DNA of 64,000 bases, taken from contig JACZUF010000011.1 in NCBI GenBank assembly GCA_022573285.1, forward strand, positions 1 through 64,000, in the 5' to 3' direction. The DNA comes from Chloroflexota bacterium. Lineage in GTDB: Bacteria; Chloroflexota; Dehalococcoidia; Lucifugimonadales; UBA3495. How positions within the stretch are numbered: the first letter of the stretch is position 1; every line of letters starts with the position of its first letter. The translations under genes were made by a program, and so were the position numbers. The notes under the pieces were generated by a model. That model ran no database searches. It saw only the letters and a list, made by a program, of their open reading frames with translations, and was not told the origin of the DNA. Below are positions 21,954 to 28,622 of this stretch, in pieces.

Positions 21954-22652
21954 CTACCAGACGTCGCCCACATCACCGCGGTCGGGGAGGCCCAACTGGG
22001 CCCAGTAGCCCTTTCGGCCGTCGGTTACCACCTCCAGCCGCTGGACCCACTTAGCCCACTGGTACCCGTACTTGCCCGGCATGGCCAGGCGCAGGGGAAA
22101 CCCGAACTTGGGCAATTCTTCCCCGTTGGTGATGCTGGCCAAGAAAGCCTCCCCCTCCCGCAAATCCTCTAGCTCCAAAGAAACGTAGTACCCGTCGAGG
22201 CAGTGGAATACGACCCGGCGGGCCTGCGGACTCACGCCGGCCAAGTCCAGCAGGTGGCTGACCGTAACGCCGGACATGACCGAGTTGTTGCGAAACCCGC
22301 CGACGCAGTCCATGCGCACCTGCCGGTCGGTCCGGGGCAGGGCCTGTACCTCCGGCCAAGACAGCGACAACGGGCGGTCCACTGCCCCGTCCACGGTCAG
22401 GATGAAGCGGTCGAGGTCAACTTTGGGGAATCCCCAGTACGCCAGGCTGCCCAGGTCCTTGATGGGCGTGATCTCGGTCTGCTCGTCAATCTTAAGGAGC
22501 CTTTTTTCGAACAACACAGCCTTTATGAACAGAAAGGTCACCCCCCGGCGGGGCCGATAGGGGATCGCCTTCCAAAGGAACGCCATGGCCCGAAGCAAGG
22601 TGGCGTTCCCGCCCACGGTGATCAGCGCTTTCCGGTAGGCGCGAGCAAACAA
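21954..22652 (-). CDS. Sulfite-oxidase-fold molybdopterin oxidoreductase (YedY-like)
   Basis: A 232-residue protein containing the sulfite oxidase Moco domain. The Mo-coordinating Cys is in RMDCVGGFRNN. The surrounding GSLAYWGFPKVD, WPEVQALPR and GVTVSHLLDLAGV segments are typical. A YGYQWAKWV motif near the C-terminus is present as in MsrP/YedY and plant-type enzymes. No Tat signal and no separate heme domain are seen. The TTG at 22652 has AAGGAGG five bases upstream and is preferred. A GTG at 22769 opens the longest frame. Electron partner and substrate unknown. Confidence 0.8.
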   Translation of the reverse strand: MFARAYRKALITVGGNATLLRAMAFLWKAIPYRPRRGVTFLFIKAVLFEKRLLKIDEQTEITPIKDLGSLAYWGFPKVDLDRFILTVDGAVDRPLSLSWPEVQALPRTDRQVRMDCVGGFRNNSVMSGVTVSHLLDLAGVSPQARRVVFHCLDGYYVSLELEDLREGEAFLASITNGEELPKFGFPLRLAMPGKYGYQWAKWVQRLEVVTDGRKGYWAQLGLPDRGDVGDVW

Positions 22653-22909
22653 GAGGGCCTCCTTTGTATCGACGGGGGCTTGCCGGTGAGTAGGGGGCAG
22701 GCAAACTTTGAGTCTGTGTTTACCACATATTAGATTCCCCAAGTCCGATACAGTTGCAGGGCCGCGCACCCAGCTTCGTTTCGCGGCATCAAAATCTACA
22801 ACAAGTCGATGAATAGTCAGCAGGCCGTATTCAGGTGGAGGCGAGTCGGGGCCGGTCTCGATTTAATGGACCGATGTACCAGACCGATGTATCGGGCAGA
22901 CCCAACGTT

Positions 22910-24037
22910 ATGGAAAACATTATCGGCAAGTCCGGTTGGATCATTGTCATACTTTTGGTGGTCGTGGTGTTTGCTGCGATATTCTTGCCGCAGTCACGTC
23001 AGTTCTTTCTGAACCTCCGGGCCGAAACGGTCACCATCGTCGACACGTCGGCCCGGCCCACGCCCGGGTCCAGCGGCACCCGTGAACTCAAGATCATCAC
23101 CGTTCTGGGCCGCGACGGCATCCCGGCGATCCTGGAGCCGCAGTTCATCACCCCAACCGAAGCCGTGGGGCAGATGGACCCCTCCGAGAGGGTGATTGGG
23201 GTGTCCATCAACGGCGAGCACCGGGCCTACCCATTGAACCTGCTCTCGCGCCACGAGATCGTCAACGACATAGTGGGCGGAAAGCCGATCGCCGTCACCT
23301 GGTGACCCCTCTGCTTCACGGGCATTGTATATGCCCGAGAGATCGAGGGAAGGGTGCTCACCTTCGGGGTGTCGGGCAAGCTCATCATGAATGCCGTGGT
23401 CATGTACGACCACCAGACCGATACGTTGTGGAGTCAATTCCTGAGCCGGGGCGTCAAGGGCCCCCTGACCAACACGGCCCTGGAGATCGTTCCGGCGGTA
23501 CAGACCACCTGGCAGCAATGGCTCAACCTGCACCCTGACACCTTGGTCCTGGACAAGCGGGGAGGCTACGGGTTCGACACCTACGAGGGTTACTACAGCG
23601 GCGGTTCGGCGGGGATCCTGGGCGAGTCCAACAAGGACAAACGCCTGCCGAAGAAAGAGTTGGTCATGGGCATGACCGTCTCCGGTTTCGCCAAGGCCTA
23701 TCCCTTCAGCGTCATCTCCCAACAGACCATCATCAATGACCACTTCGCCGGGCAAGAGGTGGTCATCACCTTCGAGCCCGAATCCGAGAGCGGAGCGGCC
23801 TTCCAGCGGCGGCTGGACGGCAGGACACTAACCTTTGAGCCTGCCGAGGGGCGGGCGGGCATCGCGTTGATGCGGGACCTGGAAACCAGTAGCCTTTGGC
23901 AGGTGCTGACCGGCCAGGCCGTGGAGGGGCCAATGTTCGGTCAACGACTGGAAAGGCTACCCTCTCACTACTCCTTCTGGTTCGCCTGGAGCGACTTCCA
24001 TCCGGAGACTGAACTTTACGGGTCGGCCGCCGGCTAA
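22910..24037 (+). CDS. DUF3179 membrane-anchored protein with probable selenocysteine (UPLC)
   Basis: A single reading frame of about 375 residues is broken only by a TGA at 23303-23305. The frame is the same before and after it, with no frameshift. Upstream are a membrane helix ([17 protein letters not shown], residues 11-27) and [19 protein letters not shown]. Downstream are [24 protein letters not shown] and a WxxW segment, all DUF3179 hallmarks. At the TGA the family has the first Cys of TW-CPLC. The protein therefore reads TW-U-PLCFTG, with Sec132 and Cys135. A SECIS-like hairpin follows at 23319-23337. Selenocysteine is inferred; the alternative is a nonsense mutation. The start is uncertain (ATG 22910, ATG 22874 or GTG 22835). 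Function of DUF3179 is unknown; a redox role is plausible. It is convergent with the Cld-like gene, overlapping by 4 bases. Confidence 0.85.
23303..23305 (+). other. In-frame TGA, probable selenocysteine codon
   Basis: This is the only stop in the DUF3179 frame between 22835 and 24035. It sits between the Trp of AVTW and PLCFTG, at the position of a family-conserved cysteine. TGA differs from the Cys codon TGC by one base, so a mutation is possible, but position and hairpin both favour recoding. Confidence 0.8.
23319..23337 (+). promoter_or_regulatory. Candidate bacterial SECIS element
   Basis: A perfect 7-bp stem (cgggcat / atgcccg) closes a 5-base loop, tgtat. The loop begins 20 bases after the TGA, and G is its second base followed by T. 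Both traits match the general bacterial SECIS model (apical G in the first two loop bases, 16-37 bases from UGA). The hairpin uses codons such as gta, tat and cga that are uncommon in neighbouring genes. Confidence 0.75.
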
Positions 24038-24867
24038 GCCCTCTCCAAAAACGCGGCTGCACCGCTGACCCGGCGACCCCACCATTCCGGGCCTTCCAGC
24101 ACGTACTTCCACTCGGGGTTCTGACTGGTGTCTCGGAGCCCGGCCATGACTTCCCGAAAGACCGGAGCGTCGGCCTCGGCGAACTCGAAGTACCCAACGA
24201 AGTCGTAGTTCCCCTCCAGGCCGTAGCCTTCCGGGGCGTGGACCAGCCGGCGGTTGATGTTGGGGACGCCGGCCGCCGAGGCCAGAGCGTGTCCCTTCAC
24301 GACCATGTTCTCGTTCTCGTCGTACCGGGGTAGGAAGAAGCTCTCCCGGTGCAGGAAGTCCATCTGCCACCAGGCGTCGGTCTTGTTCATGGGGGTCACC
24401 GCCGCCAACGGGTATTTTTCACCCTTGCCGGGCGGGAGAGCATGGGCGTAGGCGAACTCGGTCATGGCGTGGCTGGTGTAACTGCGCGGCCGCATCACCC
24501 CGGCCAGGGTCTCGACCGAACCACCCGCGGCCTCCATCAGCGTCCGGAGACCAGTCTCGTATTCTTTGAGGGGTCCCAGAGAAGCGCCTTCCAATCGTAT
24601 AAGCCCATGGGCCTCGGTCAGCGCCGGATGGACGATCTGTTGTTCGGAGGTCAGCCCGGCCTCCGCCCGCAGCAACTGGAACCGGCCCCGCTCAAACGCC
24701 TCGTCCGACGGCCCCCCATCGACGTCATGCATGTTCTCCATGTGCTGCCCCAGCAGGTCTATTGCGTCGGCCAACTTCCCGTCGACTTCGCCGTCAGCCA
24801 AACTAAAAAATAGGAATAGCTGGTGGCCGGTGACGGTGGTTGTCATGTTGAGGTGTTGGGGTTGCAT
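24034..24867 (-). CDS. Chlorite dismutase family heme protein
   Basis: A 277-residue protein with the two-domain ferredoxin-like layout of the chlorite dismutase/HemQ family. The C-terminal half is most telling: [27 protein letters not shown] (candidate proximal heme His, about residue 193), [12 protein letters not shown], and the closing [15 protein letters not shown]. Members bind heme b and act as chlorite dismutases, coproheme decarboxylases or peroxidases. Which of these applies here cannot be told. The ATG at 24867 has GAGGAG 12 bases upstream; longer in-frame starts lack one. It is tail-to-tail with the DUF3179 gene. Confidence 0.75.
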
Positions 24868-24916
24868 CGTTGGTGATTTCTCCTCGGCGGCGTGGAAGTG
24901 CGGCTGAGTTAGACGG

Positions 24917-26731
24917 TCAGTCTTGTTTGAACAGGGCATTAGCATCAGCATCGCGACCCAGGGCTCGGTAAGCCTCGGCCAGGTTGTTGCGGCTGTTCAG
25001 GGTGTTGGGGTGGTTCGGTCCCAACACCCGCTGCCGGACCTCCAGGTTTTCTTGGTGAATCGTGGCGGCCTCTTCGAAGCGTCCGGCGCTGTCGTAGGCA
25101 TTGGCCAGGTTGTTGCGGCTGGTAAGGGTGTCGGGGTGCTCCGGCCCCAACACCCGCTGCCGGACCTCCAGGTTTTCTTGGTGGAGCGTTGCGGCCTCTT
25201 CGAAGCGTCCGGCGCTGTTGTAGGCACTGGCCAGGTTGTTGCGGCTGTTCAGGGTGTTGGGGTGGTTCGGTCCCAACACCCGCTGCCGGACCTCCAGGTT
25301 TTCTTGGTGAATCGTGGCGGCCTCTTCGAAGCGTCCGGCGCTGTCGTAGGCACTGGCCAGGTTGTTGCGGCTGGTAAGGGTGTCGGGGTGCTCCGGTCCC
25401 AACACCCGCTGCCGGACCTCCAGGTTTTCTTGGTGAATCGTGGCGGCCTCTTCGAAGCGTCCGGCGCTGTCGTAGGCATTGGCCAGGTTGTTTGAAAAAG
25501 CCCTAATCACCTCATCTTCTTGGTCCAACAGCGGCGACGCCCAGGATAGCATGTGTTCATAATGGTTCATTTCCTCGGCGGGAACGAAGTTGCGGGATTC
25601 GCTGATCGCGCCGAGCCGTGAGGCAGCGCGCGCCAGGGCGGTTTGAAGGCTACCATTGGGATTGGTGGCGGCAATTACCGCGGTGGTCAAAGAGTGGAGA
25701 GCGATTTGGTCTCGATCTGCAGACAACACCGACTTGCTGGAACATTCTTTTAAGAAATTAATCAATCCCCCGCCGGTCAGCCCGGTCAGCGCCTTTGCTA
25801 GGAGAATCGGTATAGGCGCGTCGGCGGTATACCCGAGAGGCGCCAAGGGTTCCTTGATGTCATCTGTTAATGCGTCAACGGGCCCCCGCAACGCGTTGAA
25901 CAAAGAATCGGTTTGGGGAATTTGCAATCCGGGGGTCTGCTTACGGAATATTTCCAACTCTAGGCGGTCGGGAGCCGCCCGTAGTTCCTCCAGGAGCCGG
26001 CCGGGGGTCTCCCCCGGTGAATCGAGTTGCACCGCCAGGGCTTCCACGGCGCGGGGGAGGCGGCCTACTTCTTCCACGATTTCGAAGAACACGGAATCCT
26101 CAAGATTGTGGTGCCCGCTTCTACAAAGAAGGCGGACTGCTGGTTCCGGACCCAGAACTCCTATTGGTATATATTCGACGCCTTCAGGGATAACGGCCCG
26201 ACCGTCCTTGGAGGTGACCAGAATCGAGATTTTTTCGGTTTCGTTCAGCAGTGTATTCAAAAGGTCTAGGTCGGATAGATTGTCAATTACCCAAAGTGTC
26301 TTTGCGGGCAGCGCTTGGAGTCTTCGTCGGGTTTGGACAAGAAGTTCGTCGTCGCTCCGTTCCCCGCGTTCAATTCCCAGATGGGGGGCTAGCGAGATTA
26401 AGGTTTGCGCCGGTGTCTCGCCACCTGGGGTCCAGAACCCTTTACGCGTGGATTTTTTCGCGTACTCAGCAGCCAGTTGGGACTTGCCGATACCGGGTCC
26501 CCCCGAGAGGACCACCACGTTCAGCCGCTCGAAAGAGTTGGTGATTTTCTTTAGCTCCGCCTCTCGTCCCAAAAATCGGCCACTAATGGACCGGGGCCTA
26601 CCGGCCCAATGGGTTAGCTCGGACTTCCAAACGGCGTATTCACCATTCCTTCGTTCCAACCACCTTTTCAATGGTGGAATAGCTTTTCCGACCAGACCTA
26701 CGATTGCGAGAATCAGTTCAGGAATGCCCAT
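24917..26731 (-). CDS. NB-ARC STAND ATPase with C-terminal TPR repeats
   Basis: A 604-residue regulatory or defence-type ATPase. Residues 3-20 form a hydrophobic N-terminal segment (IPELILAIVGLVG). The NTPase follows: Walker A GGPGIGKS (77-84), Walker B TLWVIDNL, sensor LVTSKDGR and a GRLPRAVEALA motif. From about residue 420 the protein has kinesin-light-chain-type TPRs, four of them nearly identical 42-residue units. The ATG at 26731 is chosen because the longer frame to 27067 overlaps the mutase gene and has no conserved sequence. The trigger and output are unknown; STAND proteins of this layout act in signalling or phage defence. Confidence 0.85.
   Translation of the reverse strand: MGIPELILAIVGLVGKAIPPLKRWLERRNGEYAVWKSELTHWAGRPRSISGRFLGREAELKKITNSFERLNVVVLSGGPGIGKSQLAAEYAKKSTRKGFWTPGGETPAQTLISLAPHLGIERGERSDDELLVQTRRRLQALPAKTLWVIDNLSDLDLLNTLLNETEKISILVTSKDGRAVIPEGVEYIPIGVLGPEPAVRLLCRSGHHNLEDSVFFEIVEEVGRLPRAVEALAVQLDSPGETPGRLLEELRAAPDRLELEIFRKQTPGLQIPQTDSLFNALRGPVDALTDDIKEPLAPLGYTADAPIPILLAKALTGLTGGGLINFLKECSSKSVLSADRDQIALHSLTTAVIAATNPNGSLQTALARAASRLGAISESRNFVPAEEMNHYEHMLSWASPLLDQEDEVIRAFSNNLANAYDSAGRFEEAATIHQENLEVRQRVLGPEHPDTLTSRNNLASAYDSAGRFEEAATIHQENLEVRQRVLGPNHPNTLNSRNNLASAYNSAGRFEEAATLHQENLEVRQRVLGPEHPDTLTSRNNLANAYDSAGRFEEAATIHQENLEVRQRVLGPNHPNTLNSRNNLAEAYRALGRDADANALFKQD
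24962..25465 (-). repeat. Four tandem 126-bp TPR-coding repeats
   Basis: Four 42-codon units each encode AGRFEEAAT-I/L-HQENLEVRQ followed by RVLGP. Units 1 and 3 continue EHPDTLTS and units 2 and 4 continue NHPNTLNS. The alternation suggests duplication of an 84-codon pair. DNA identity between units is very high, indicating recent or homogenised duplication. Confidence 0.9.
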
Positions 26732-26849
26732 CGCGCCACCTGGTGGTTGTCTACTGCGAACTGGCTTCGCCAGCACTATCCAAGATAGTAACACGGAGGG
26801 TTTTGATTTCTGAGTGGAGGATGTCCGCGTCACTTCGAGCCCACCAACC

Positions 26850-26878
26850 TTGAGTGCCCCCATATATGAAGGTACAAT
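26850..26878 (+). promoter_or_regulatory. Sigma-70-type promoter of the mutase operon
   Basis: TTGAGT (26850-26855) and TACAAT (26873-26878) are separated by 17 bases. This site lies about 80 bases before the methylmalonyl-CoA mutase start. Confidence 0.55.
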
Positions 26879-26960
26879 TGGTGGGCCGAGCCGACCTGGG
26901 GACCAGGTTATGTCAATCGACCCCTTTAATCGGCGGCTCAGCGATTTTTTGGAGTTGGGC

Positions 26961-28622
<1,662 letters not shown>

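Follow-up and report, generated by a model that had tools for sequence, protein, structure and literature searches.

The window, as we call the whole 64-kb stretch of marine bacterial DNA analysed here, carries a DUF3179 gene with a single in-frame TGA on its forward strand. The gene and the features within it are as follows.

22910-24037, forward strand: predicted DUF3179 selenoprotein gene of 375 residues, with Sec132 in the motif WUPLC and a TAA stop, drawn from the read-through translation and the PF11376 match across the TGA
22922-23005, forward strand: N-terminal helix (residues 5-32) with a hydrophobic core, seen in the AlphaFold2 model; presumed membrane anchor
23105-23617, forward strand: first half of a duplicated domain (residues 66-236), with UPLC, matched to the second half by hhalign; modelled alone by AlphaFold2 at pLDDT 92.3
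23303-23305, forward strand: in-frame TGA (predicted Sec132), which is TGA in dozens of homologues and TGC or TGT at the same codon in the rest
23312-23314, forward strand: Cys135 (TGC), presumed resolving partner in U-x-x-C, at a position that never varies in alignments A1 and A2
23319-23337, forward strand: putative apical SECIS hairpin, with stem 23319-23325/23331-23337 and loop UGUAU at 23326-23330
23618-24025, forward strand: second half of the duplicated domain (residues 237-372), matched to the first half by hhalign, with no Cys/Sec pair and EPESES at the equivalent place

Translation of 22910-24037 begins at an ATG at 22910, a start supported by homologues that have Met at the same place. 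The TGA is codon 132 and is followed by 243 sense codons and a TAA at 24035-24037; apart from the TGA, the read-through translation contains no stop or frameshift. The preliminary description of this DNA had likewise found the frame continuous on both sides of the TGA; the downstream codons that it put at 244 are indeed intact but number 243. The read-through protein matches the DUF3179 profile PF11376 in a single stretch (residues 68-367, profile positions 1-292 of 292) with 309 bits and an E-value of 3.8e-92. The curated cut-off is 27 bits, and the protein is thus a member of DUF3179 whose family sequence continues past the stop codon. It has no NCBIfam match. Since the window contains 66 TGA junctions flanked, by these loose limits, by 70 or more open codons upstream and 60 or more downstream, being open on both sides is by itself weak evidence, and the case rests on comparison. 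Three things set the TGA at 23303 apart from a chance junction: one family match spans it, dozens of relatives have TGA at the same codon, and a conserved hairpin follows.

The divergent gene upstream (21954-22769, reverse strand) encodes a PF00174 molybdopterin oxidoreductase domain; it also adjoins DUF3179 in genomes G005 and G006 and was not seen beside the G008 copy. Downstream lie a gene at 24034-24951 (reverse strand), whose product has no Pfam or NCBIfam match and is about 77-86% conserved beside DUF3179 in close relatives, and one at 24917-27067 (reverse strand) for an AAA-domain protein with near-identical TPR repeats, on several of which the tblastn matches of relatives land. No conserved operon surrounds DUF3179 beyond the PF00174 gene and the 24034-24951 gene in close relatives.

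DUF3179 matches were found in 76 of 99 related genomes, and many rows of the result contain one in-frame TGA. When Chloroflexota orthologues were read singly, at identities from 81% down to about 36-50%, the TGA was found at exactly the same codon, with the domain otherwise open. The named loci of a second collection come from Chloroflexota, with SAR202 MAGs among them, from one Poribacteria and from one MAG labelled Actinomycetes; they have at most one TGA, always at the motif, and those that lack it have Cys at this codon. U/C-x-x-C is the only conserved Cys/Sec pair of the protein. The preliminary description had read the TGA as replacing the first Cys of a CPLC motif and had suggested looking in homologues for TGA or TGC there; exchange between the two is seen at precisely this codon.

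A tree built from 86 rows, of which 60 are Sec and 26 are Cys, needs six changes of state, against a mean of 22.6 for shuffled states; there is a small bias in that the Sec rows, unlike the Cys rows, had the motif column set to missing. One Cys copy, L080, lies inside the Sec clade of the window gene at a starred node, so that at least one Sec/Cys exchange took place there. Elsewhere, L141 (G075:C13:18140-19072) has a TGA at the motif (UPLCNSA) within an otherwise Cys subfamily, and its sequence suggests another such exchange. The window genome, G000, holds three Sec paralogues with the motifs UPLC, UTLC and UIKC; its three other DUF3179 genes are of the Cys type. Besides the window gene, the Sec paralogues are:

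G000:C73:56939-57877: L135, predicted second Sec DUF3179 gene, with a single TGA in the corresponding motif, here UTLC, and a hairpin after the TGA
G000:C16:6778-7746: L136, predicted third Sec DUF3179 gene, with a single TGA in the corresponding motif, here UIKC, and a hairpin after the TGA

In bacterial selenoproteins the SECIS element lies just 3' of the UGA (PMC9312934). The window hairpin begins 13 nt past the TGA, with a distance of 20 nt from TGA to loop, and the 48 nt of RNA 3' of the TGA fold with a minimum free energy (MFE) of -22.8 kcal/mol (z = -4.29). Bacterial SECIS elements have a G as the first or second base of the loop; here it is the second. Taken alone, the MFE of this region is a poor discriminator between Sec and Cys genes (p = 0.04); the informative test is whether bases pair in a fixed register. 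By that test the seven stem pairs are formed in 92.9% of cells across 44 distinct UPLx sequences, compared with a mean of 83% in shuffles, none of 2000 of which reached as high. They are formed in 91.2% of cells in 21 UTLC sequences and in 41.2% of cells in 26 Cys homologues, the latter on par with their shuffles. L080, the Cys copy in the Sec clade, retains just two of the seven. Among UPLC-type Sec genes the inner pairs alternate between C-G, T-A and A-T, and between G-C and C-G, which are two-sided compensatory changes. These pairs link the sixth codon past the TGA with the tenth, and there the combinations Gly/Ala, Ala/Gly, Ala/Ser and Gly/Ser all retain pairing. The reciprocal codon pairs GGC/GCC, GCC/GGC, GCT/AGC and GGA/TCC alter the amino acids on both sides; because pairing is kept at that cost, codon use alone does not explain it.

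The genome is equipped to use such an element. It encodes a tRNA-Sec with anticodon tca, a selB match above cut-off, selA (E = 5.6e-168) and a selD that itself contains Sec (CAGUASK), and thus all four of the genes that the preliminary description had proposed to look for. Since selB is present in 87 of the 99 genomes of the order, its co-occurrence with Sec genes has little power. Still, in three near-complete genomes that gave no hit for either selB or selA (G077, G080 and G091), DUF3179 is absent or free of TGA, and selB is above cut-off in 16 of the 18 named genomes with Sec copies, the exceptions being G099 and G102. Five incomplete MAGs (G011, G021, G025, G034 and G075) have TGA copies and no selB match, two of them (G021 and G025) with selA. 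It is very unlikely that the TGA is instead decoded as another amino acid through a change of code, or passed by leaky readthrough: TGA terminates two of 12 neighbouring genes examined, the position swaps with Cys in homologues, the tRNA with the tca anticodon is tRNA-Sec, and a SECIS-like hairpin follows the TGA.

Selection also reaches past the TGA. There, dN/dS of the window copy is 0.115 against G005, 0.091 against G008 and 0.120 against G006, and it is higher before the TGA; the low values indicate that translation runs on past the TGA and that purifying selection acts on what follows. Orthologues in three genomes of the same genus are damaged, each beside conserved neighbours: that of G004 (L035) has three stops and has lost the motif, that of G003 (L147) has frameshifts, and that of G009 (L156) has frameshifts and a motif that reads UPLR. 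The frameshifts in G003 and G009 may be assembly errors. Judged from these sequences, the gene seems to be dispensable in parts of the genus and to be in the course of loss in places. Such damage could speak for the window copy being itself a recent pseudogene, a Cys-type DUF3179 gene struck by a nonsense mutation, and the preliminary description had named decayed close relatives as evidence against a selenoprotein. Decayed relatives do exist, but purifying selection acts on the copies in the window, G005, G006 and G008, all of which are intact. Intact copies with the same TGA are spread over many genera, in several of the order's families; together with the covarying hairpin, the dN/dS of about 0.1 after the TGA and the Sec machinery of the genome, this makes a nonsense mutation extremely improbable. 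The earlier preference for a candidate selenoprotein is therefore well supported by the machinery, the TGA/TGC exchange and the hairpin, and we are confident that the window gene is a DUF3179 selenoprotein in which the UGA at 23303-23305 is read as Sec.

The two halves of the domain match each other with a probability of 99.9% (E = 1.6e-35, hhalign), which reveals an internal duplication; the Sec/Cys pair survives in the first half alone. The AlphaFold2 model (pLDDT 93.1) is all-beta after the N-terminal helix, consisting mostly of strands with a few short helices, and it places UPLC between two strands, 125-132 and 137-142. In place of the helix many relatives have lipobox-like N-termini, and the two kinds of start make an extracytoplasmic location probable. 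No sequence relative was found in the PDB, and Foldseek gave no significant match there. The preliminary description had called the pair thioredoxin-like, which is apt for its spacing but not for the fold: the model is not alpha/beta, and no thioredoxin occurs among the 50 best PDB matches. Of the matches from the two structure searches, the best plausible ones were of the NirD/Rieske type (3c0d, probability 0.93-0.99, TM-score by target about 0.53), with E-values of 0.07-0.26 that are not significant. Compared with Rieske by profile, the Sec-bearing half did not rise above chance or above a reversed control, and the protein has no CxH motif and lacks the Rieske cluster ligands CxH...CxxH. It is a rather speculative idea, to which we give little credence, that DUF3179 is a duplicated and remodelled Rieske/NirD-like beta domain without an iron-sulfur cluster, whose former ligand loop serves as a Sec/Cys redox pair; if true, a selenoenzyme centre would sit on an extracytoplasmic scaffold other than the thioredoxin fold. 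In the BFVD database, the DUF3179 model finds a functionally uncharacterized protein of the giant virus Indivirus ILV1, A0A1V0SD44, with a Foldseek E-value of 3.1e-8.

By the logic of its motif, U132-C135 is probably a selenol/thiol redox centre. The pair might instead, perhaps with the conserved His115, bind a metal within a tight beta turn of the selenoprotein, since in the model UPLC sits between two strands as in metal knuckles, and the HExxND motif upstream is almost invariant. We consider this possible but unlikely: the protein has a single conserved Cys/Sec pair, no sequence-profile link to the metal-binding family compared (Rieske) was found, and Sec is rarely a structural ligand. Under the preferred redox reading, the ribosome of this SAR202-type Chloroflexota bacterium would read the UGA at 23303-23305 as Sec, with the hairpin 13 nt downstream recruiting SelB and its Sec-tRNA(Sec). 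The N-terminal helix would anchor the product and leave the two-repeat all-beta domain exposed outside the membrane, where the U-P-L-C pair of the first repeat would most likely perform selenol/thiol redox chemistry through a U132-C135 selenenylsulfide.

The preliminary description knew of no selenoproteins in DUF3179, but the family (PF11376, motif UxxC/T) is already on published selenoprotein lists (PMC9312934, PMC13188914), the first of which cites a 2007 study for it. No description of DUF3179 selenoproteins from SAR202 or Chloroflexota was found in the literature searched. The source cited for them is reportedly the work of Zhang and Gladyshev in 2007 on the deltaproteobacterial symbiont of Olavius algarvensis. 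The window protein shares with the listed selenoproteins the Pfam family and Sec in UxxC, a likeness by published listing rather than by sequences, and differs in its host phylum, Chloroflexota, and in the presence of three Sec paralogues in one genome. Cys-type members from Anaerolineae, Gemmatimonadales, Acidobacteria, Actinomycetota and archaea share family and motif position but, unlike the window gene, have TGC or TGT at the codon and SECIS pairing not above chance. Thioredoxin-fold UxxC selenoproteins share the U-x-x-C spacing, whereas the window model is all-beta with two repeats, and for Rieske or NirD-type beta domains any likeness lies in weak structure matches.

What is added here appears to be a radiation in SAR202-type Chloroflexota, the window genome holding three Sec paralogues, and a duplication with the Sec/Cys pair in its first half only, an all-beta predicted fold and a probable extracytoplasmic location. 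The gene is a trap for annotation: taking the TGA as a stop truncates the protein at residue 131, and Sec copies occur across the Chloroflexota. DUF3179, a family of unknown function, gains a testable active site and a domain architecture, and offers a natural experiment in Sec/Cys exchange with SECIS loss. For the SAR202-type bacteria, these findings suggest a sizeable and little-described use of selenium.
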